Virus record (IMG/VR): IMGVR_UViG_3300036828_000565
Coordinates: 1 to 64,000 of that record
Direction: 5' to 3' (one strand)
From: a virus
Length of the DNA stretch: 64,000 nt
Below the pieces are notes generated by a model. That model saw only the letters and a list, made by a program, of their open reading frames with translations, ran no database searches and was not told where the DNA came from. Positions 39,862 to 54,980 of the stretch are shown in pieces (the stretch's first letter is position 1; each line of letters begins with the position of its first letter). Position numbers and translations under genes: made by a program.

Positions 39862-40155
39862 TTATCTGATATCATAAGTCAATTCACAGTTATGATAGAC
39901 CACTTTGGTCTTTGGCCTTTCTGGATCAGGGTCTATTATAGTTGTATCATGCTTAGCGTCACAAACAGCCGTGACATTTCCTTTGGAACTATGATCAATA
40001 TCTAACTTTATCTTGCCTGAGCTAAGTTTAGTTACTTTGGGTTTTTGTCGATCGTTTGCATTAGCACTGTTAAGTTGAGCAAACGCTCTTGATACTGGTC
40101 TACCGTATTGAGCAACCCACATTATCAAGGCTATGAATCCAATAAATTTAAGCAT
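39862..40155 (-). CDS. Exported small protein, 97 aa
   Basis: The N-terminus MLKFIGFIALIMWVAQYGRP to about FAQ at residue 27 reads as a signal peptide or anchor. The mature part is basic, with two cysteines (TAVCDAKHD, YHNCELTYD) that could form a disulfide in the periplasm. It overlaps the start-proximal gene upstream by 8 bases and is the last gene of the metabolic operon. Function unknown. Confidence 0.55.
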   Translation of the reverse strand: MLKFIGFIALIMWVAQYGRPVSRAFAQLNSANANDRQKPKVTKLSSGKIKLDIDHSSKGNVTAVCDAKHDTTIIDPDPERPKTKVVYHNCELTYDIR

Positions 40156-40579
40156 AAATTTTCTCCAATCTAGTTAGTTCATTAGGCCTGGACAATATTC
40201 CTTTGATATCTGGAGGGATATAGTCCGGGCCTTTTGGTGTCTTTGTACCGTATTTCTGACCATCAACTGCTTTAACAGCTGTTTTGCTCATGTTGCTTCT
40301 GTGAACTTCAATAAAGATACGTTCTATAGGAATACCATAAGAAACACAAGTACCTATAACAACATAAATAAGATCAGCTGCACCATCTGCAATTTCTTCT
40401 AAACTTCCTTCTTCTATCCCTTTAAGCATCTCTGCGCACTCTTCTAGTATTAATTCACTTCTTAATAGTTTAATAGAATCAGGAGGAATGCTAGGATAGT
40501 TAGAAATCATGTGACCGTATTTTTCATGAAAGTCTTTTAACATCTGTTCAAAGTTCAAAGATAATGTTTTCGTGTTCAC
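40148..40579 (-). CDS. MazG-like nucleotide pyrophosphohydrolase, 143 aa
   Basis: All-alpha NTP pyrophosphohydrolase: ELILEECAEMLKGI and EEIADGAADLIYVVIG supply the EExxE and ExxD metal-binding motifs, followed by EVHRSNMSK. GTG start at 40579 after AAGGAG. These enzymes hydrolyse NTPs or dNTPs to monophosphates. Next to a probable hydroxymethylase and glycosyltransferase, it could serve as a dCTPase, removing unmodified dCTP as T4 gp56 does; that substrate is inferred from context only. Confidence 0.78.
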   Translation of the reverse strand: MNTKTLSLNFEQMLKDFHEKYGHMISNYPSIPPDSIKLLRSELILEECAEMLKGIEEGSLEEIADGAADLIYVVIGTCVSYGIPIERIFIEVHRSNMSKTAVKAVDGQKYGTKTPKGPDYIPPDIKGILSRPNELTRLEKIYA

Positions 40580-41003
40580 TTCTACTCCTTTCCATAAGAT
40601 GTCTAATTGATTCTACGCCGTGTCCTTTAGAGAAATAAGGACCTTTAAATAAAGGTATAGAATCCTTATCTTTATCTACTCTAAATGTTGAGAGTTGTGT
40701 GGTACTTAAAACAGCAGTCATCTTAATATCTGGATAGTAAATAACATATAGAACTAAAGCGTATCTTGATATTCGTTTACAGACTTCATATTGACGAATA
40801 TCGTTTATAGCTTCCCAGGGAAAACAACATGTTTCATCTGCCCCAGTCCCTATTTTGGTTTCATAGAATGTTACAAAACTATGTTTAATGTGCATGTTAT
40901 CTGGAAGACCTAACATTACTTTATCGCTAATCTTAATGATCTTCCCACCAATTTCTTTTCTAAGCTTTGAAGCAAGTAACCCACTGAATGTTGATTCTTT
41001 CAT
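40548..41003 (-). CDS. Putative PD-(D/E)XK nuclease, 151 aa
   Basis: The first 52 residues follow the VRR-NUC/Hjc-like pattern: a helix (TFSGLLASKLRKEIG), GLPDN with D35, then a strand with E48-T-K50 (FYETKIG). This is a resolvase or flap-type nuclease signature. The rest is less typical. ATGA overlap with the glycosyltransferase candidate upstream. It may process replication intermediates; activity not proven. Confidence 0.55.
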   Translation of the reverse strand: MKESTFSGLLASKLRKEIGGKIIKISDKVMLGLPDNMHIKHSFVTFYETKIGTGADETCCFPWEAINDIRQYEVCKRISRYALVLYVIYYPDIKMTAVLSTTQLSTFRVDKDKDSIPLFKGPYFSKGHGVESIRHLMERSRSEHENIIFEL

Positions 41004-42007
41004 TCAATCAACCTTTCTATGGTAGATATCACTTCTTCCTTGCTAGAGAGATGACTCTCCAGCCATTCTCTTTGAGCTACGACTCTCTCCTCATATTCTT
41101 GAGGCCCCGCCAGAGATTCGAAATCACTAGAACTACCTCTATATGCTTCACCCATTAAGGAGGCGTCTCTAAAATCTGAATAGATTATCGTTTCAGCCCA
41201 CGCTGCATTTAGGTACCTTGTTCTCCACCACCCCGACCCAGCTGAAGGATATCCACAAGATAGGATACCAAAACTATCTGCGAATAATTGAATAGTTTGA
41301 GACTCATTTAGAACAAAACCATCACCCATTCTTTTATTTCCAACATAGGAAACAGGAAACTCAAATCCTTGTTTGTTGACCCATCTAGAGTGATCAGAGA
41401 GGGCTGCCATGATCCACCGTTTTTTCTTATTGTAAAATGTTGGAATGTCGATAGTTGGATACTTGACCCAACTTGATGGATCAACAGTATATAGGGTGGC
41501 ATTATAGTTTTCTCTCATTAAAAATTCATGATCTCCCCAAGAAAACATTGGGGCTAATACAGGAGCATTGTTTCCGGCTAGTGCTATAGACACCATTAAG
41601 GAAAGACTGTTATAAGTACTTTCTATAGCTTCTGGACTACATTTAAAGTTCCTATAATCGAGATACTTTTCCCATCTTTCAAGAGTGTATCTTACCGAAG
41701 GACCGAAGTTACAGAAACTCCAGTCGTCAGCAAAAACAGCAAATTTTCCTTGCATTTGATCCATAGCATAATGAGTCTCTGGCACTAAACCCGCTGATAT
41801 CGAACTTAAAGGAGCAACTCCTAGGAATGCGTATCTGTATTTCCAGGTTAAATCTTCTCCTATTATTACTTTCCTTCTTTCTACATCATATCCCATATCT
41901 TTTAAGATATCCTCTAGAACATAGGCGAACGTCACGTAGTCACCTTGAATCCTAGTACTACCTGATGTTCGAGTGGTATAGCCAGATATTAAGATCTTAT
42001 GCTTCAT
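41000..42007 (-). CDS. GT-B-like glycosyltransferase candidate, 335 aa
   Basis: No close family is recognised with certainty. The layout is two Rossmann-like halves: KILISGYTTRTSG, EDILKDMGYDVERRKVII and a YAFLGVAPLSS strand in the first, and YVGNKRMGDGF, SFGILSCGYPSAGSGWWRTR and AWAETIIYSDFRDASLMGEA in the second. The second half recalls the donor-binding end of phage DNA glucosyltransferases such as T4 beta-GT, where a conserved Arg/Glu region binds UDP-sugar. It lies in an operon with a dCMP-hydroxymethylase-like enzyme and nucleotide kinase, so a DNA-modifying role is the best guess. Confidence 0.5.
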   Translation of the reverse strand: MKHKILISGYTTRTSGSTRIQGDYVTFAYVLEDILKDMGYDVERRKVIIGEDLTWKYRYAFLGVAPLSSISAGLVPETHYAMDQMQGKFAVFADDWSFCNFGPSVRYTLERWEKYLDYRNFKCSPEAIESTYNSLSLMVSIALAGNNAPVLAPMFSWGDHEFLMRENYNATLYTVDPSSWVKYPTIDIPTFYNKKKRWIMAALSDHSRWVNKQGFEFPVSYVGNKRMGDGFVLNESQTIQLFADSFGILSCGYPSAGSGWWRTRYLNAAWAETIIYSDFRDASLMGEAYRGSSSDFESLAGPQEYEERVVAQREWLESHLSSKEEVISTIERLIE

Positions 42008-42323
42008 TATCCTTTAGATCTCCCCATCTTATACAATTACCAACAGCTTCTTCACATTCTTTTCTATTTTTAAGTAACTTATCTAAGAATTTAGGATCAA
42101 CTTTCAAATCTATAACACCTCCAAAAGCTTCTCCACCTGGGTTAATTCCAAGTTCATGAGTCTTCATCACAGCAGATAAGAACCCAGGAGCTTTCGTTAT
42201 TACGGCTCCAAGAAATCTATTAGGTTCAGCAAATGATATATAGAAAAGTTGCTCAGGGTTATTTCTTTCTTCTTCTAACATAGCTACGAATCTAATTGCA
42301 GAATCAACGGTTATTTCATTCAT
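41997..42323 (-). CDS. Hypothetical protein, 108 aa
   Basis: ATG at 42323 follows GGAGGAGGTGTACAG and overlaps the polymerase stop (ATGA), so the longer frame to 42383 is rejected. Alpha/beta in appearance (SFAEPNRFLGAVITKAPGFL, GEAFGGVIDLKVDPKFLDKL). No family recognised. It sits between polymerase and glycosyltransferase candidate and overlaps the latter by 11 bases. Confidence 0.6.
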   Translation of the reverse strand: MNEITVDSAIRFVAMLEEERNNPEQLFYISFAEPNRFLGAVITKAPGFLSAVMKTHELGINPGGEAFGGVIDLKVDPKFLDKLLKNRKECEEAVGNCIRWGDLKDNEA

Positions 42324-44218
42324 TCTGTACACCTCCTCCAATTTTCCCCTACTTTTATCTTCCAAAGAAGTGGTACACGGCATGGAATACGTGAGTCAGG
42401 AGCCTCCAATAACTCTTTGAAATTTTTGGCTTTGGCCCTGTTCTCGATATCGCCATCGATCTCATCGTGTACAGTTGCACGAAGGTCCATTGTAAGTAAC
42501 TTTCGGTTGCGATAAGTTTCGAGAATTTTGACCTTAAGAGTTTCGGCTGCGGTTCCTTGGATAATTGCGTTAAGAGCTGAGTGTAATCTTTCGCCGGTGG
42601 GATACCTTCGGCGTCGACCCATGATTGTATGGACATAGCCACGATTCTTTGCAACTCGCATTGCCTCTTGAGATAGACTCTTAGCTTCTGGAAATTTCTC
42701 ATCATATTCTCTTGATATTGCAAAAGCCTTTTGCATCATGCAAGTTTTCTTATGATTTGCTTTGCACCACTGATCTCCTGGTGGAACCCCACAATTACAT
42801 GGACAACCAAGTTTACGAGCTAATTTAGGAATTCCCATCGTATAGAGTTTTCCAAAGTTATTGTGCTTAGCATCTTTTCGTTTTTGACCAAGCAAATTAG
42901 CCACCAGTTGATGGAAATCCATTGTTGGGTCGGAACAGTAAGCAGAAATGAGTTTGTCTGATCTTGAATAATGGACGAACCAACGGAATTCGATCTGGGA
43001 AGCATCAGCTGAGACGTAGAGCTTTCCGTCAGCAGGGATGAAGAGTTCTCGTAAAATCCAAGCAGCAATCTCATATTCCTCTAATTGAGATTCAACTTTC
43101 ATGACTTGTTGAATGTTAATGCCCTTCTTATCTATTCCTCCAGAAGAAGCATATCGTCCGGTAACTGTTCCAAATTCATCACTTCTTAATTGATGAAGTT
43201 GATAACGTAAGATGTTGTTGGCATCTAATAGATTACGATACTTTATAAGATACTTAGTTAGTAGTGAGTGAAGTTTTCGAGCCAACAAAATTGCTCTTAC
43301 GCATGGGTGTTGTATTCTTCTTAGATACTCTTCTTCAAAGGTAACTTCACCGCCTAATTCTTCTTCTCTTCGTGGATATTCTAATCCAAGAGCATTAAAT
43401 AATCGTCTAAGATCTGGACCGGAGTTAGGATTAACTTTAACTCCGGTCTGAGCATATAAAGAAAGAATCGCAGATTGATGTGCTTCTTCAACTTCTCTAA
43501 TCCATAATTCTAATTTAGATCTATCTATTCTAGCGCCTGCTCGTTCCATAGCTACTGTTGAATAAATTAATTGGTCTTCAAGCTCGCAAACTGCAGTAAG
43601 TCCTTGATTGTCAATTTCTTCTTGTTGAAAAATGTCGAGTTCACGATGTAAGAAAGCGTCATGTTCCGCATAGGTCCCGACTTCACTAGCAGCCATGTCG
43701 GCAATGTTGTACTTTTCGCCTTCTGTTTCTTCTTTACTGATCCCCAATACATCGTTCGATAATTGATTGAGATTGAAGCGTCTACGATTTTCATCAAGTA
43801 AAGCCGCTTTGAAAGCAGGATCATGTACTTTAACATCGAGTTCTTCGAGATCCAATTCCCAGTTATAACAAACTTGAATATCACCTTTTGCGTTGAGAAT
43901 GCAGAGATGTCTACCTCTAAGGTTTCCTTTAGCCCAACGCCGTACGGTGTTTTCGTCAAGATTTCCTCCAGCTCGGTGACCGACAGGCAGATAGTATCTT
44001 CTACCAAGGGGATCGCAAATCGCAATTCCAGCAAGTCTAGAGCGATAGATGTTTTTATTGGGGAGTTCAAATTCTGTATCAAAACCAAATTTCTCCTTTA
44101 AAGGAATTTGAGAAAAATCGGGTAGCTCGGCTGGAGCTACCCAACCAGTAGGTGCATGGTTTCCACTAAATAAAGATCCCACCATTTCGGGTTGTGGATA
44201 TCTTTTAGTCGGGCACAT
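42320..44218 (-). CDS. polA: DNA polymerase I family A with 3'-5' exonuclease
   Basis: Replicative polymerase, 632 aa, no 5' nuclease. Exonuclease motifs: FDTEFE (D47, E49) and YAEHDAFL. Polymerase motif A is VSADASQIEFRWF (about residue 400), motif B RKDAKHNNFGKLYTMG with the Arg, Lys, Phe and Tyr of the O-helix intact, motif C VHDE at 583-586. A Cys-rich insert (CPCNCG, KANHKKTCMM) after motif B is unusual and may bind zinc. It overlaps dCMP deaminase by 14 bases. Confidence 0.95.
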   Translation of the reverse strand: MCPTKRYPQPEMVGSLFSGNHAPTGWVAPAELPDFSQIPLKEKFGFDTEFELPNKNIYRSRLAGIAICDPLGRRYYLPVGHRAGGNLDENTVRRWAKGNLRGRHLCILNAKGDIQVCYNWELDLEELDVKVHDPAFKAALLDENRRRFNLNQLSNDVLGISKEETEGEKYNIADMAASEVGTYAEHDAFLHRELDIFQQEEIDNQGLTAVCELEDQLIYSTVAMERAGARIDRSKLELWIREVEEAHQSAILSLYAQTGVKVNPNSGPDLRRLFNALGLEYPRREEELGGEVTFEEEYLRRIQHPCVRAILLARKLHSLLTKYLIKYRNLLDANNILRYQLHQLRSDEFGTVTGRYASSGGIDKKGINIQQVMKVESQLEEYEIAAWILRELFIPADGKLYVSADASQIEFRWFVHYSRSDKLISAYCSDPTMDFHQLVANLLGQKRKDAKHNNFGKLYTMGIPKLARKLGCPCNCGVPPGDQWCKANHKKTCMMQKAFAISREYDEKFPEAKSLSQEAMRVAKNRGYVHTIMGRRRRYPTGERLHSALNAIIQGTAAETLKVKILETYRNRKLLTMDLRATVHDEIDGDIENRAKAKNFKELLEAPDSRIPCRVPLLWKIKVGENWRRCTE

Positions 44219-44660
44219 ATATCCTTCCAGCTATCTGTACTGCACACCCTGCTTCTAATAGAACAGTTAACCCAGACTTATCTGCATATTCTTCAATACA
44301 TATAATAGCACCAATGTTTGTATTAACAATCATCTTAGCGCAAACAAAACAAGGAGTACAAGATGCGTACATAACACTAGCCCTACTAAGATCACTACAC
44401 TGTAAAAGAGCGTTTTGTTCAGCGTGGACTGCCATACACTGTGATGTATCCCCTGATTTATCAGTAGCCCCCAAACAAGGAACATCGATGCAATGATCAA
44501 AATTCTTGGGTACTCCGTTGTAACCAGTACTAAGAACATGTCCCTCCTTATCTGTTATAATAGCTCCAACTTTTCGTCTAATACATGTACTGCGGTTTGC
44601 TACTAATTTAAGCATCTCTAAATAATACTCAACTTTTGTTAATCTTGTTTGGGAGTTCAA
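44205..44660 (-). CDS. dCMP deaminase
   Basis: It converts dCMP to dUMP. Zinc site: HAEQ and CTPCFVC; further conserved parts are TCIRRKVGAIITD and STGYNGVPKNFDHC. 151 aa, full length. Translation starts at TTG 44660, six bases after GGAGG. The gene overlaps the thymidylate-synthase homologue upstream by 32 bases. The dUMP would feed the ThyX coded at 51081, parallel to the T4 layout where cd coexists with a dCMP hydroxymethylase. Confidence 0.92.
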   Translation of the reverse strand: MNSQTRLTKVEYYLEMLKLVANRSTCIRRKVGAIITDKEGHVLSTGYNGVPKNFDHCIDVPCLGATDKSGDTSQCMAVHAEQNALLQCSDLSRASVMYASCTPCFVCAKMIVNTNIGAIICIEEYADKSGLTVLLEAGCAVQIAGRIYVPD

Positions 44661-45486
44661 GTAGTACCTCCAAGGCAGAATGTTTATCTTGTTCTAAAGC
44701 CGTAGCGTAACTTTTCCATGGTTCTTGTAAAGAGGCTGTTGGTTCTTTTCTTAATAGTATATTAGACATAACATGTTTTCCTGGAAATATGTTAGTTATT
44801 GTAGGAGAATAATGATAGTTAGCATCTTCAGACATTAATAGTGCCATAGCATTTTGAATGTTTATTTCATATAAGTGACTAGAAGCAAGGTTCATAGTAA
44901 TTGAACCTACAGGTAAATTTAAATAAGAAGCTACTACATTAGTGTATTGAGTAAAAGTAAAGAAATCATATGGAAATCCTAACCATACATCTGAACTTCT
45001 CATATTAACAGTAACATGTAATGCTCCTTCTCTAATAAGCCATTGAAGAGAAATAGTACAAGGTACATCTAATGAAGTAGAAGGTGAAGGAGTCCAAATA
45101 GTTGCTACAGCCTGTCTAGAATCCTGTTTTCTTAAAGATTCTAATATATAAAAAAGTTGAGGTCTTAAACGAGGACCATAAGCTCCTGATAGTATCTGCC
45201 CATCATCACTAAAATCTTTCATCACGGAATTGTATCTAATCAAATAAGAGAGCTCATTTAATCCAGCTTGAATCCAAAGCCATTCTGCTATCATGAATCT
45301 ATAATTTAAATCTCTGCTTGGACTAAGAATGATATTGTTAAGAGCCTTTTTAACTTCTACTGAAACGTTCATTATTTCTATAGTTCTTTTTCCTCTAGGA
45401 GAACTACTTACACCAATTTGAAATAAAGATGTAATTAATGCTCTCCATGCGTGTGAAACGCTTCCTTCTTTAATTAGTAGAGCCAT
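44629..45486 (-). CDS. Thymidylate-synthase homologue, probable dCMP hydroxymethylase
   Basis: ThyA fold, 285 aa from ATG 45486. Catalytic C143 lies in DVPCTISLQ, YGPRLR at 103-108 and RSSD at 163-166. At the place of the ThyA residue that reads the uracil ring (Asn in PFNIASY) there is D174 in FPYDFFTF. T4 gp42 dCMP hydroxymethylase has Asp at this place and Asn-to-Asp mutants of ThyA turn to dCMP. Since the phage also codes ThyX, this enzyme is unlikely to be its dTMP source. Prediction: 5-hydroxymethyl-dCMP synthesis. Methylation of dCMP remains possible. Confidence 0.72.
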   Translation of the reverse strand: MALLIKEGSVSHAWRALITSLFQIGVSSSPRGKRTIEIMNVSVEVKKALNNIILSPSRDLNYRFMIAEWLWIQAGLNELSYLIRYNSVMKDFSDDGQILSGAYGPRLRPQLFYILESLRKQDSRQAVATIWTPSPSTSLDVPCTISLQWLIREGALHVTVNMRSSDVWLGFPYDFFTFTQYTNVVASYLNLPVGSITMNLASSHLYEINIQNAMALLMSEDANYHYSPTITNIFPGKHVMSNILLRKEPTASLQEPWKSYATALEQDKHSALEVLLELPNKINKS

Positions 45487-46393
45487 GTATTCTTTCCTTA
45501 ATAATGTCAGCAAGGACCTGTGAATTAGATCCTTTAAAACGTTTTAAATAAGATGGATGGGGAATGTAAGAAGTTTTGTATATATGAGTAGCTCGCTCAT
45601 CATACCATGCTTTAGCTGCTTGTCCCATTAAGAAAATATGCTCTATGTTGTTAAGCCAAGCAAGCATCGCTCCTAATGAGTGTATGTGATTTATCGGACT
45701 AAAAGCATTTGAGATGGCAATTTCTGATTCTTTTAATCCAGCCTTTATAAGAGCACTATTGAAATAACCACTCGATCCATTTAGTGCATGAAAAGGCACG
45801 TCGATACTAGGATGATTTGGTCTATCACCTATAAATAGATACTTTGCCTGTTTAGATCCTACTAAACCTTTAGGAGATCTATTAGGTGGAAATTTATCTA
45901 TATCTTGAATTAAAGATTCTACATTATTTTTCTCATAGTTAAAAATTCTACACTTGTTACTATAAGTCCAATCGAGATAACTCTCATACACTTGTTGAAA
46001 TTTTTCCATAGATTTAAGAAAATCATTTGGATCTTTCATTTTAATAGAATAGTTATCTATAGCTACTTGTCTAAATGGAAGACAAATAATTTGAGTGACT
46101 TCCTTACTATCACAGAGTCTCGTAAATAAAGTTTGACCATTATGTCCAAGACGATCTATTCCTCTTACTATTGGACCGTAGATACGTTCACCTAACCAAA
46201 GACGATCATGAACAACATTTTGAGAACCTTCAATAGATTCATTTAGAATCTCAAGATAGTAAGCAATAAGATCTATATTATCAGGAGGGGGTCCTTCATG
46301 TTTGTATTTAAATCCAAACTCTTTTTCTAGTCTTTTAGCTAAGATAGTTTTACCACCTCCATCAGGACCTTCTAAAATTATTACTTGTCCCAT
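45470..46393 (-). CDS. Nucleotide kinase fused to a uracil-DNA-glycosylase-like domain
   Basis: 307 aa. Residues 1-170 are a thymidylate-kinase-like P-loop kinase: EGPDGGGKT (8-16) and D63-R64 of the DR motif. Residues 183-300 follow the UDG-superfamily order: FIGDRPN (187-193), PF (200-201), GSSG (206-209), ISNA (227-230), LMGQAA (255-260) and HPSYLKR (279-285), like family 4/5 enzymes. The first motif reads GDRPN, unlike GEAPG or GQDPYH, so glycosylase chemistry may be lost or changed. The kinase would phosphorylate dTMP and perhaps modified dCMP. TAATG overlap with the gene upstream. Confidence 0.75.
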   Translation of the reverse strand: MGQVIILEGPDGGGKTILAKRLEKEFGFKYKHEGPPPDNIDLIAYYLEILNESIEGSQNVVHDRLWLGERIYGPIVRGIDRLGHNGQTLFTRLCDSKEVTQIICLPFRQVAIDNYSIKMKDPNDFLKSMEKFQQVYESYLDWTYSNKCRIFNYEKNNVESLIQDIDKFPPNRSPKGLVGSKQAKYLFIGDRPNHPSIDVPFHALNGSSGYFNSALIKAGLKESEIAISNAFSPINHIHSLGAMLAWLNNIEHIFLMGQAAKAWYDERATHIYKTSYIPHPSYLKRFKGSNSQVLADIIKERIHGSTN

Positions 46394-50609: not shown

Positions 50610-51084
50610 GTTTTAACTCCTCTATTTTTCTATTGAGATACCATGATGCTTTCTCCAGATTTTCTAGAGGATTTCCTTTCTTATCCCACCTTGAGATATA
50701 CTTAATTGTGTTTCCTAAATGAAAATCTAGTTTCCATGCTTCAATTACTTTAATAGCTTCATATGTTGTATCACCACCGTAGTGAGCTGGGTGATTTACT
50801 GATTTAGATTCTATTGGAAACACTGGATTAGATCTTTGGACTACATTAAATTTATCTCTATAACCATAGACAAATTTAGACCCAGAAGGTAGCCATTGTT
50901 TGACTATTGCTGTTACGGTTTCTTTATATTCAGGACCTGGAGTTATTACTTCAATTGTGTAATCAAAGGTTACGCTCCATTCCCAACTATATGTTTCTCC
51001 TAGTATTTCTTTTAGTCTAGGAAATACTTCTAGCATAAAAGATTTCCTGAGTTCAGGAAGTCTAGCATCTTCTACGTTTATCAA
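50596..51084 (-). CDS. DUF3310 protein (T7 gp1.7-like C-terminus), 162 aa
   Basis: The C-terminal 65 residues (VNHPAHYGGDTTYEAIKVIE, LGNTIKYISRWDKKGNPLEN, LEKASWYLNRKIEEL) are DUF3310, the domain found in T7 gp1.7, a nucleotide kinase. The N-terminal 95 residues are a separate alpha/beta domain not recognised. A role in nucleotide metabolism is plausible. ATGA overlap with ThyX. Confidence 0.78.
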   Translation of the reverse strand: MINVEDARLPELRKSFMLEVFPRLKEILGETYSWEWSVTFDYTIEVITPGPEYKETVTAIVKQWLPSGSKFVYGYRDKFNVVQRSNPVFPIESKSVNHPAHYGGDTTYEAIKVIEAWKLDFHLGNTIKYISRWDKKGNPLENLEKASWYLNRKIEELKHGKL

Positions 51085-51809
51085 TGTGGTCTCCTCATAT
51101 TGTCAATTTGTCTTTCCCCTGGAATGATGTCATCAAAGAGCAGTGGTACGTTTTGCTGAAATTCTCTAAGTAATGAATCACAGATTTGACGAATTTGAGG
51201 ATGAGCTTCTTTGGTTGTCCTCATAAGTAGCAGGTGTCTCCAACTACGAAGATTGGCAGTCGTTAGAATCTTGGCAGCTAGAGCATTAGGGAGAACTGAA
51301 CGAGCTTCTTGAGGTCTCATGCCATTCTGTAAAGCTTTCTTATAATAAAACTCAGCATCATGAATAGCATTCATCCAACCGTCGTCATTGTGGCAGTCTT
51401 CTTGATTTTCTCCATGCCACCATAAACCATCGCTGTCTCGCCAAGCCTCGTCACCATCTAAACACCTAAAACAGGTTCGATCAGGAACCGGGTAAATGAA
51501 ACTCGGTGGCATCTTCTTCTCATAGTTTACGAATCTAGTAGACTCTTGCGTAAAAGACATAAGACGATGACGAACCCACTCATGAGTGATGCCCCTGTCC
51601 ATAACTGCCATGACTGATATTGAACAATGCTCAACAACAGACCAATCACCGTGATCCACAACCACATTCTGAATAAACCTATTCCATGTGTTTTCATTCA
51701 TGTTCTCTTCTGAGCGATGTGAAATTCGGGCCCCAAACTCAATCATCTTTAAACCTTCACTTAATAACTCAGGTTTAAGAATGTGCGCGAATGGCTTGAT
51801 TATCTTCAC
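51081..51809 (-). CDS. thyX: Flavin-dependent thymidylate synthase ThyX
   Basis: It makes dTMP from dUMP with FAD and NADPH. The signature RHRX7S is complete: R80-H81-R82 to S90 (RHRLMSFTQES), with VVEHCSISV before and LRSWRHLLLMRTTKEAHPQI after. A Cys-containing insert (about residues 105-140, TCFRCLDGD and ENQEDCHNDD) is unusual. 242 aa. Intergenic element copy 3 lies upstream of the start. With ThyX present, the ThyA-like protein at 44629 is free to do something else. Confidence 0.94.
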   Translation of the reverse strand: MKIIKPFAHILKPELLSEGLKMIEFGARISHRSEENMNENTWNRFIQNVVVDHGDWSVVEHCSISVMAVMDRGITHEWVRHRLMSFTQESTRFVNYEKKMPPSFIYPVPDRTCFRCLDGDEAWRDSDGLWWHGENQEDCHNDDGWMNAIHDAEFYYKKALQNGMRPQEARSVLPNALAAKILTTANLRSWRHLLLMRTTKEAHPQIRQICDSLLREFQQNVPLLFDDIIPGERQIDNMRRPH

Positions 51810-53653: not shown

Positions 53654-54478
53654 TTAAAATGCTTGATGTTGTCCTTCTATATCATTAGCTCCATGACCAA
53701 ATTCTACTTCAGCTTCTTCACCAGTCGTATCAATTTTGATATTACTAGCTTTGAGTTTCTTAAACAAATGATCCATTTGATCAAAGAGTTCTCGATTTAC
53801 GTATTTATCAGGCGTGATCTTTTTTTCAAACCATTGATTCTTATCTTTTTTCATTTCAACTACAGTTACTCTATAATACTTTGAAAACATTGGCATGTTA
53901 GTGAGACGAACAGCAGCTAAAAGTTGTTTTGATAATTTTAGTCCGGTAGATTTATAACTTACAGCAATTGGAGAAGGTATCTCAACATCAGGCATGAATG
54001 CCATAAAATTATGATATAGAGTACATAGTGGTGGATCATTTGCTGATTCAGATTCTTTAAGTGCCCCGTTACCCCAACTGCTAAATTGGCATGAAGCACA
54101 ACTTGCTGGAGAAAGTCGTCCTCCATCAATCGCATTCACGGATATACAGTCTATACCCCCACCCTCATCTATATCTATGTATTTGATTCTATTCTTAAAA
54201 AAGAATAAAGCAATGACAACTAAATCAATTCCATAAATTTCTTGAGTTACTGTATTAAAGAGTTGTCCTTCTTCTAAACCTGGAATATAAGCTGAATCAC
54301 TTTTACGACGCTGAGGTGAAAGCGACTGACATAGACCAAGTCTAGGAAGTAGAATATCTGAGCTATCTACATCTTCCATACCTGCTTGATTACCAATTGT
54401 GCCCCTTAGAAACTCAGGGACCTCTTGATAGAGAGATGAATGTTTTTGTTTAGCTAATTCATTATCATTCGTCGTCAT
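53654..54478 (-). CDS. Replication accessory protein with Cys cluster, 274 aa
   Basis: No firm family. Features: acidic N-terminus, beta-rich middle (QEIYGIDLVVIALFFFKNRI), CASCQFSSWGNG with a later CTLYHNF that may coordinate zinc, and SYKSTGLKLSKQLLAAVRL then FSKYYRVTV, a layout seen in phage single-strand-binding or annealing-like proteins. Position between primase and helicase supports a DNA-binding role. The acidic C-terminal end (EEAEVEFGHGANDIEG) would also suit an SSB. Confidence 0.5.
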   Translation of the reverse strand: MTTNDNELAKQKHSSLYQEVPEFLRGTIGNQAGMEDVDSSDILLPRLGLCQSLSPQRRKSDSAYIPGLEEGQLFNTVTQEIYGIDLVVIALFFFKNRIKYIDIDEGGGIDCISVNAIDGGRLSPASCASCQFSSWGNGALKESESANDPPLCTLYHNFMAFMPDVEIPSPIAVSYKSTGLKLSKQLLAAVRLTNMPMFSKYYRVTVVEMKKDKNQWFEKKITPDKYVNRELFDQMDHLFKKLKASNIKIDTTGEEAEVEFGHGANDIEGQHQAF

Positions 54479-54980
54479 AATTTACTCCCCTAATCATTAT
54501 TGATTGTTTAAAGTATGGTTCGATTCCAGCAGGAACCGGTTGTCCATCTATAAGTCTAGATTTAACTAGACTGTTCATTGTTTGATAGTTTACTGAGAGA
54601 AGATCTTCCATATCATTTTCAGATATCCAGCTCATAAACGCTGGCTTATCTTTGACAGAAGAATAAACATCATCTTTAATTGAAATAGATACTCCACCCT
54701 CAAGTTTGACGCTAGTGTAATCTTGACTTTCCATCATTTCAATTAATTCTTGTTGAGTTGCTTCTACTATAATTTGTTGAGCTTTTATTAATGCATTAAG
54801 TCTAGCTTTCTCGGCTCTTGCTTTTGCGTAAACGATACCTAAACTTTTTACGGTTACTTGTTTACCGCTAGCTAAAAGCTCTCCTTTAACTTCATCTTTC
54901 ATGAGGTTAACCTTAGATTGATAGTCGGGTTCTACCTCTACTTTAGTGAGTTGACTCTTAAATCCACTATATTTTCCCAT
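54465..54980 (-). CDS. Coiled-coil replication-operon protein, 171 aa
   Basis: Residues 20-80 form a long Lys/Glu helix (KSLGIVYAKARAEKARLNAL), followed by a small beta region (YTSVKLEGGVSISIKDDVYS). Overlaps neighbours at both ends by 14 bases. Phage proteins of this outline occur next to SSB genes, but no role is known. Confidence 0.6.
   Translation of the reverse strand: MGKYSGFKSQLTKVEVEPDYQSKVNLMKDEVKGELLASGKQVTVKSLGIVYAKARAEKARLNALIKAQQIIVEATQQELIEMMESQDYTSVKLEGGVSISIKDDVYSSVKDKPAFMSWISENDMEDLLSVNYQTMNSLVKSRLIDGQPVPAGIEPYFKQSIMIRGVNYDDE

Follow-up and report, generated by a model that had tools for sequence, protein, structure and literature searches.

Gene content of the locus

The window analysed here, a stretch of 64,000 nucleotides, comes from a 71.4 kb IMG/VR virus record of an uncultured phage known from a metagenomic contig, and eight overlapping open reading frames (ORFs) fill its minus strand from 46393 down to 40148 with overlaps of 1-64 bases (Table 1). 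Their products are a nucleotide kinase joined to a domain resembling the uracil-DNA glycosylase (UDG) superfamily, a ThyA homologue, a dCMP deaminase, a family A DNA polymerase (PolA), a small protein, a candidate glycosyltransferase (GT), a nuclease-like protein and a PRA-PH/MazG-like pyrophosphohydrolase; a flavin-dependent thymidylate synthase (ThyX) is encoded separately. ORFs and families (by Pfam and PHROG E-values) agree with an earlier note, made from the sequence alone, that had named these genes and the separate ThyX, though not the second, UDG-like kinase domain or a PD...ExK motif in 40548-41003. Catalytic motifs are unbroken in ThyX (RHRx7S), the kinase (Walker A) and the deaminase (HAE/PCxxC), which matches PF14437 as well as PF00383. 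Judged by its gene content (tail sheath, baseplate wedge, terminase) the phage is contractile-tailed, and since it has PolA and no close match for the first 25 kb of the window was found among phage records, it is not a close relative of T4. The order kinase-UDG, ThyA, deaminase, PolA, GT, nuclease-like ORF and PRA-PH recurs in five other IMG/VR contigs (L006/L051, L054, L055, L056 and L061, the last with a ThyA that reads as two fragments) and is therefore not due to chance.

Table 1. Genes of the putative cytosine-modification operon and the separate ThyX gene
Feature	Position	Strand	Evidence and remarks
Nucleotide kinase-UDG-like fusion; probable hydroxymethyl-dCMP (hm-dCMP) kinase with accessory domain	45470..46393	-	phrog_761; fold and profile matches
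ThyA-family pyrimidine hydroxymethylase; probable dCMP hydroxymethylase	44629..45486	-	PF00303; residue tables
dCMP deaminase	44205..44660	-	PF00383 E 1.5e-18; phrog_174 E 1.9e-39; HAE and PCFVC motifs
PolA with 3'-5' exonuclease domain	42320..44218	-	PF00476 E 1.1e-43; PF01612 E 4.6e-7
Small ORF between PolA and GT	41997..42383	-	phrog_13485 E 8.6e-4; homologue in L006
GT-B-fold glycosyltransferase; probable DNA (5-hydroxymethylcytosine) glycosyltransferase	41000..42007	-	phrog_14998; predicted fold, profile, genomic contexts
Nuclease-like ORF	40548..41003	-	PD...ExK motif; kept in L006, L054, L055, L056, L061
PRA-PH/MazG-like pyrophosphohydrolase; candidate dCTPase	40148..40579	-	PF01503 E 1.8e-15; phrog_671 E 4e-28
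ThyX; probable separate supply of dTMP	51081..51809	-	PF02511 E 6.2e-41; RHRLMSFTQES motif

The active site of the ThyA homologue resembles that of a dCMP hydroxymethylase

We compared the residues of the ThyA homologue (PF00303, E 1.3e-20; best PDB relative the CMP 5-hydroxymethylase 5b6d, E 4.4e-19) with E. coli ThyA, T4 gp42, RB69 ORF048c and phage relatives. If ATG 45486 is the start codon, as in the nearest homologue, D174 corresponds to E. coli N177, which bears out the Asn-to-Asp switch described in the earlier note. Identity to gp42 extends over nine compared active-site positions: in E. coli numbering, the protein has C146 (the catalytic Cys, C152 when counted from a TTG start), T147, R166, D169, D177, H207 and Y209, all as in gp42, and the conserved E58 and Y94 are kept as well. 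E. coli thymidylate synthase differs from this in having H147/N177, and the protein of phage Pam3 (whose gene has aGPT-PPlase and Nmad5 genes as neighbours) has N147/N177; the window protein has neither Asn177 nor His147, nor the closing C-terminal tail (PVAI in E. coli), which is likewise absent from gp42. It also fails as an enzyme of the RB69 ORF048c type, which in Mosigvirus is a 5-hydroxy-dCMP synthase (PMC13390438), because the enzymes of RB69 and Gualtarvirus have Asn169 and Phe209 instead of Asp169 and Tyr209; for the RB69 enzyme, the residue placed at E58 depends on the alignment and was not used to set it apart.

In the MetaGPA study, no two positions distinguish modified from unmodified contigs better than 177 and 147, and PF00303, PF00383, PF14437 and PF01503 co-occur in modified-cytosine contigs (PMC8670742). 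Given the gp42-like residues, the missing tail, the relationship to 5b6d and these two positions, a dCMP hydroxymethylase is our best call and, to judge from the residues, a very likely one, just as the earlier note had suggested. With ThyX encoded separately, a second thymidylate synthase is not needed.

A candidate glycosyltransferase with a predicted GT-B fold

Profile searches of PDB sequences, Pfam, NCBIfam and PHROGs place 41000-42007 in no functional family. It belongs to phrog_14998 (E 1e-6 for the window protein; nine of nine aligned members match), for which Pfam, PHROGs and NCBIfam list no function. Its AlphaFold2 model, built from a 17-member alignment that contained neither T4 beta-glucosyltransferase (BGT) nor alpha-glucosyltransferase (AGT), has a GT-B fold (pLDDT 82.3, pTM 0.84). 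In a Foldseek search of 350,542 PDB chains, BGT (1j39) came first (E 7.8e-7, TM 0.66/0.64), and the top nine matches include five further BGT entries and other GT-B enzymes; AGT (1y6g/1xv5) was also matched (E 3.7e-4 to 5.2e-4). In BFVD the five best matches are to phage proteins that bear no functional name. A GT-B-like candidate is what the earlier note had proposed here, naming a model without a glycosyltransferase fold as evidence to the contrary; the model obtained has that fold.

Nine diverse members share the invariant residues G9, G39, D95, W209, G223, E235, W261, R262, R264, G286 and Q312. D95 lies close after strand 89-93 of the model and, by this position, may correspond to the catalytic D100 of BGT, which follows YYLFT. 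Since the hhalign comparison with BGT is not significant, we do not claim sequence homology. That the enzyme acts on DNA is suggested by the model and is, in our estimate, likely, if a shade less so than the assignment of the ThyA homologue. A search of the genome contigs with the L006 GT as query gave no match. In another contig (L034:8861-11026), some 370 residues without a Pfam or NCBIfam match precede a phrog_14998 GT in one open frame.

Genomic contexts of the glycosyltransferase family

Members of the family occur in several settings. Actinophage DSL-LC01 has, in this order, kinase-UDG, Asp177-type ThyA (ThyA-D), deaminase, PolA, GT, UDP-galactopyranose mutase (UGM), a second GT and MazG. 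UGM produces UDP-galactofuranose, a rare sugar donor. A Tet/JBP dioxygenase upstream of the GT and UGM directly downstream are found in C48C1 and in all but two of 19 related contigs, both exceptions being cut upstream at the contig end. UGM also adjoins the GT in contig L028, in phage AS-gz and in the Aeromonas T4-like phage Aes012, which has a gp42 56% identical to that of T4 and in which neither AGT nor BGT was found. In Gualtarvirus the GT is flanked on one side by an arabinose-5-phosphate isomerase (SIS domain) and on the other by a putative nucleoside-diphosphate-sugar enzyme, near an RB69-type ThyA. The Tet/JBP, gp42, arabinose and ThyA-D contexts thus all point to DNA with hydroxy- or hydroxymethylpyrimidines as the likely substrate.

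At least four branches of the GT tree show GT and UGM genes that abut or nearly do so (contigs within one branch are not independent). Chance would not be expected to produce this, both being rare: among 50,697 phage records, 88 have UGM matches and 37 have GT-family matches. Tentatively, then, and with rather more doubt than confidence, we propose that phrog_14998 constitutes a new DNA glycosyltransferase family and that its members beside UGM attach galactofuranose to 5-hydroxymethylpyrimidine DNA. This would give a testable function to a family that has none listed and predicts galactofuranose DNA, so far unreported, in Aeromonas phages Aes012 and phiAS4 and in phage DSL-LC01. We know of no report of galactofuranose in DNA, and the GT family and its galactofuranose link look new, the type of pathway being known. 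As UGM is absent from the whole 71.4 kb record and from relatives G001-G006, the window GT would use a host sugar donor.

Two further arrangements were seen. The cassette of Tet/JBP dioxygenase, phrog_14998 GT and UGM, of cyanophage type, is found at L008:6511-9958 and in L063-L079. In Lactobacillus phage ATCCB (L085:4037-7092), a ThyA with T147/D177, beta-gt and UGM are consecutive, linking a second GT family to UGM.

A probable pathway to glycosylated 5-hydroxymethylcytosine and its alternatives

Taken together, glycosylated 5-hydroxymethylcytosine (5hmC) is the most likely product of these genes. We envisage that the PRA-PH enzyme would convert dCTP to dCMP, onto the C5 of which the ThyA homologue would place a hydroxymethyl group; the kinase would then phosphorylate hm-dCMP towards the triphosphate, dCMP deaminase and ThyX would feed dTMP, and PolA would copy the DNA with hm-dCTP. 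On the DNA, the GT-B enzyme would finally attach to this hydroxymethyl group a sugar taken from a nucleotide-sugar of the host, which would shield the phage DNA from cytosine-dependent nucleases. We prefer this pathway because it uses every part of the operon, and consider it probable as a whole; gene families, residues, predicted fold and conserved gene order are observed, and the reactions, the direction of flow, the sugar and the protective role are inferred from them. The observations of the earlier note are thus confirmed and its interpretation, DNA with glycosylated 5hmC, is supported. C5-methyltransferase (PF00145) is absent from the genome in searches with positive controls; Tet_JBP (PF12851) gave no match in the genome, the control for that search likewise being without a match.

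Some observations weigh against the pathway. In sequence, the GT is not significantly similar to BGT (hhalign) or, by Pfam, to BGT and AGT, and its fold comes from a single predicted model in which some regions have a pLDDT of about 50-60. The record yielded no sugar-donor gene, and in vitro Asp177 by itself allows dCMP methylation too. Moreover, the core can exist without the GT: Stenotrophomonas phage AXL3 resembles the window in its kinase-UDG (27.6% identity over 98%), ThyA with T147/D177, dCMP deaminase, NTP-PPase and ThyX, yet has no phrog_14998 GT among the GT-family matches in phage records, and its DNA is still resistant to enzymes with G/C in their sites (PMC7504290).

AXL3 would accordingly suit a scenario where cytosine is hydroxymethylated and the DNA carries plain 5hmC, the GT working elsewhere, on the cell envelope or another substrate. 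We regard this as unlikely in view of the BGT-like predicted fold, the location of the GT within a nucleotide operon, both in the window and in five relatives, and the Tet/JBP and gp42 contexts of its family. Less likely still is that the ThyA homologue is a dCMP methylase like that of Xp12, whose DNA contains 5-methylcytosine (PMC7653180). An N177D-type mutation does turn thymidylate synthase into a dCMP methylase, according to a passage of PMC8670742 citing that work; however, a GT requires a hydroxyl acceptor, the window ThyA lacks both the C-terminal tail and W80 of thymidylate synthases, and its nearest PDB relative is a hydroxymethylase. Synthesis of 5-hydroxy-dCMP, with a pentose attached directly to the C5 hydroxyl as in RB69, is decidedly improbable, even though the RB69 enzyme belongs to the same superfamily and shares T147/D177 and though the GT homologue of Gualtarvirus lies within an arabinose cassette, because positions 169 and 209 are those of gp42 and no pentose-donor gene is found among the operon genes by Pfam and PHROGs. 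Least probable of all is ordinary thymidylate metabolism, with ThyA as a second thymidylate synthase in an operon that only supplies dTTP: dCMP deaminase and kinase would suit this, and the authors of AXL3 read their genes so (PMC7504290), but duplication of thymidylate synthase is rejected on the active-site residues (Asp177/Thr147, no synthase C-terminus) and the presence of ThyX, and a GT is part of the operon.

Preferring, then, the route to glycosylated 5hmC, we note that it would extend sugar-coating of cytosine to another phage group, that the success of restriction, CRISPR and glycosylase defences depends on modifications of this kind, and that new DNA glycosyltransferases may be useful in 5hmC labelling. 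It also offers a possible explanation for the restriction resistance of AXL3. As an observation on that phage (L088), its annotated thymidylate synthase has the dCMP signature T147/D177, and its published G/C-site resistance is unexplained.

Comparison with known systems

The window resembles T4 (gp42, gp1, cd, gp56, a-gt/b-gt) in its dCMP hydroxymethylase-like ThyA, dCMP deaminase, kinase, dCTPase candidate, GT-B DNA glycosyltransferase candidate and separate thymidylate synthase. It differs in belonging to an unrelated contractile-tailed phage with PolA, in a GT that shares the fold but not the sequence of BGT and AGT, in the fusion of the kinase to a UDG-like domain and in making dTMP by ThyX instead of ThyA. 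The claim that the parts are those of T4 in different families stands for the GT by sequence but not for ThyA, which is of the same superfamily as gp42.

The idea of a T4-like pathway outside the relatives of T4 is not itself novel, VPE25, ATCCB and the MetaGPA contigs being precedents. Like the window, Enterococcus phage VPE25 and ATCCB are non-T4 phages that combine a T147/D177 ThyA with a GT-B glucosyltransferase, although theirs is a recognisable BGT homologue (31% for ATCCB) rather than phrog_14998, and ATCCB also has UGM, which the window lacks. Cytosines of VPE25 are modified, its DNA resisting bisulfite and MspI and being cut by PvuRts1I (PMC4999554); together with those on AXL3, these data support the class of pathway and not the window phage directly. 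The MetaGPA contigs (5cmdC) share Asp177 and the PF00303/PF00383/PF14437/PF01503 set but decorate with a carbamoyltransferase, not a GT (PMC8670742). RB69 and Thanatos likewise have a ThyA-superfamily enzyme (T147/D177 in RB69) and sugar on cytosine, but differ in the Asn169/Phe209 enzyme of RB69, which leads to 5-hydroxy-dCMP, and in phage-encoded pentose-donor genes. In a more distant relative, L059, the ThyA/deaminase/ThyX core is accompanied by TAGT, which represents a different family of DNA glycosyltransferases. Virus-encoded GTs that add sugar to 5hmC, reportedly in methyltransferase/TET-based systems, are said to have been described by Pyle et al. in 2024 (volume 43 of Cell Rep, article 114631) and may overlap with phrog_14998. 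In L059 (1120-3932), a radical SAM/SPASM protein, a TET-associated glycosyltransferase and a C5-methyltransferase lie directly upstream of the ThyA-D operon.

The kinase-UDG fusion and neighbouring genes

The kinase half (about residues 1-174; Walker A GPDGGGKT at 9; phrog_761, E 3.1e-16) is followed by a UDG-superfamily-like half (about 179-293) with GDRPN at about 189 and PHPSYLKR at 278, the HP-Y-KR motif being broadly conserved among alignment members. PF03167 is matched below the cut-off (E 0.0021); by profile, yorR is matched over residues 4-161 and the UDG 1ui0 over 180-279 (E 1.6e-5). Foldseek matches of the AlphaFold2 model (pLDDT 90.3) are the uracil-DNA glycosylases TM0511/UdgX and thymidylate, dNMP and deoxynucleoside kinases. 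The fusion looks new, and it is a guess that its UDG-like half serves sanitation of uracil or of unmodified bases. Many phage contigs, as well as AXL3, retain the fusion alongside the ThyA-D operon.

No Pfam match above the cut-off was found for 40548-41003, the PD...ExK nuclease-like ORF within the modification operon, which could act on unmodified DNA. Outside the operon, 53654-54980 encodes homologues of gp33 and gp34 of Pseudanabaena phage Pam3 (PF23984, PF23977).

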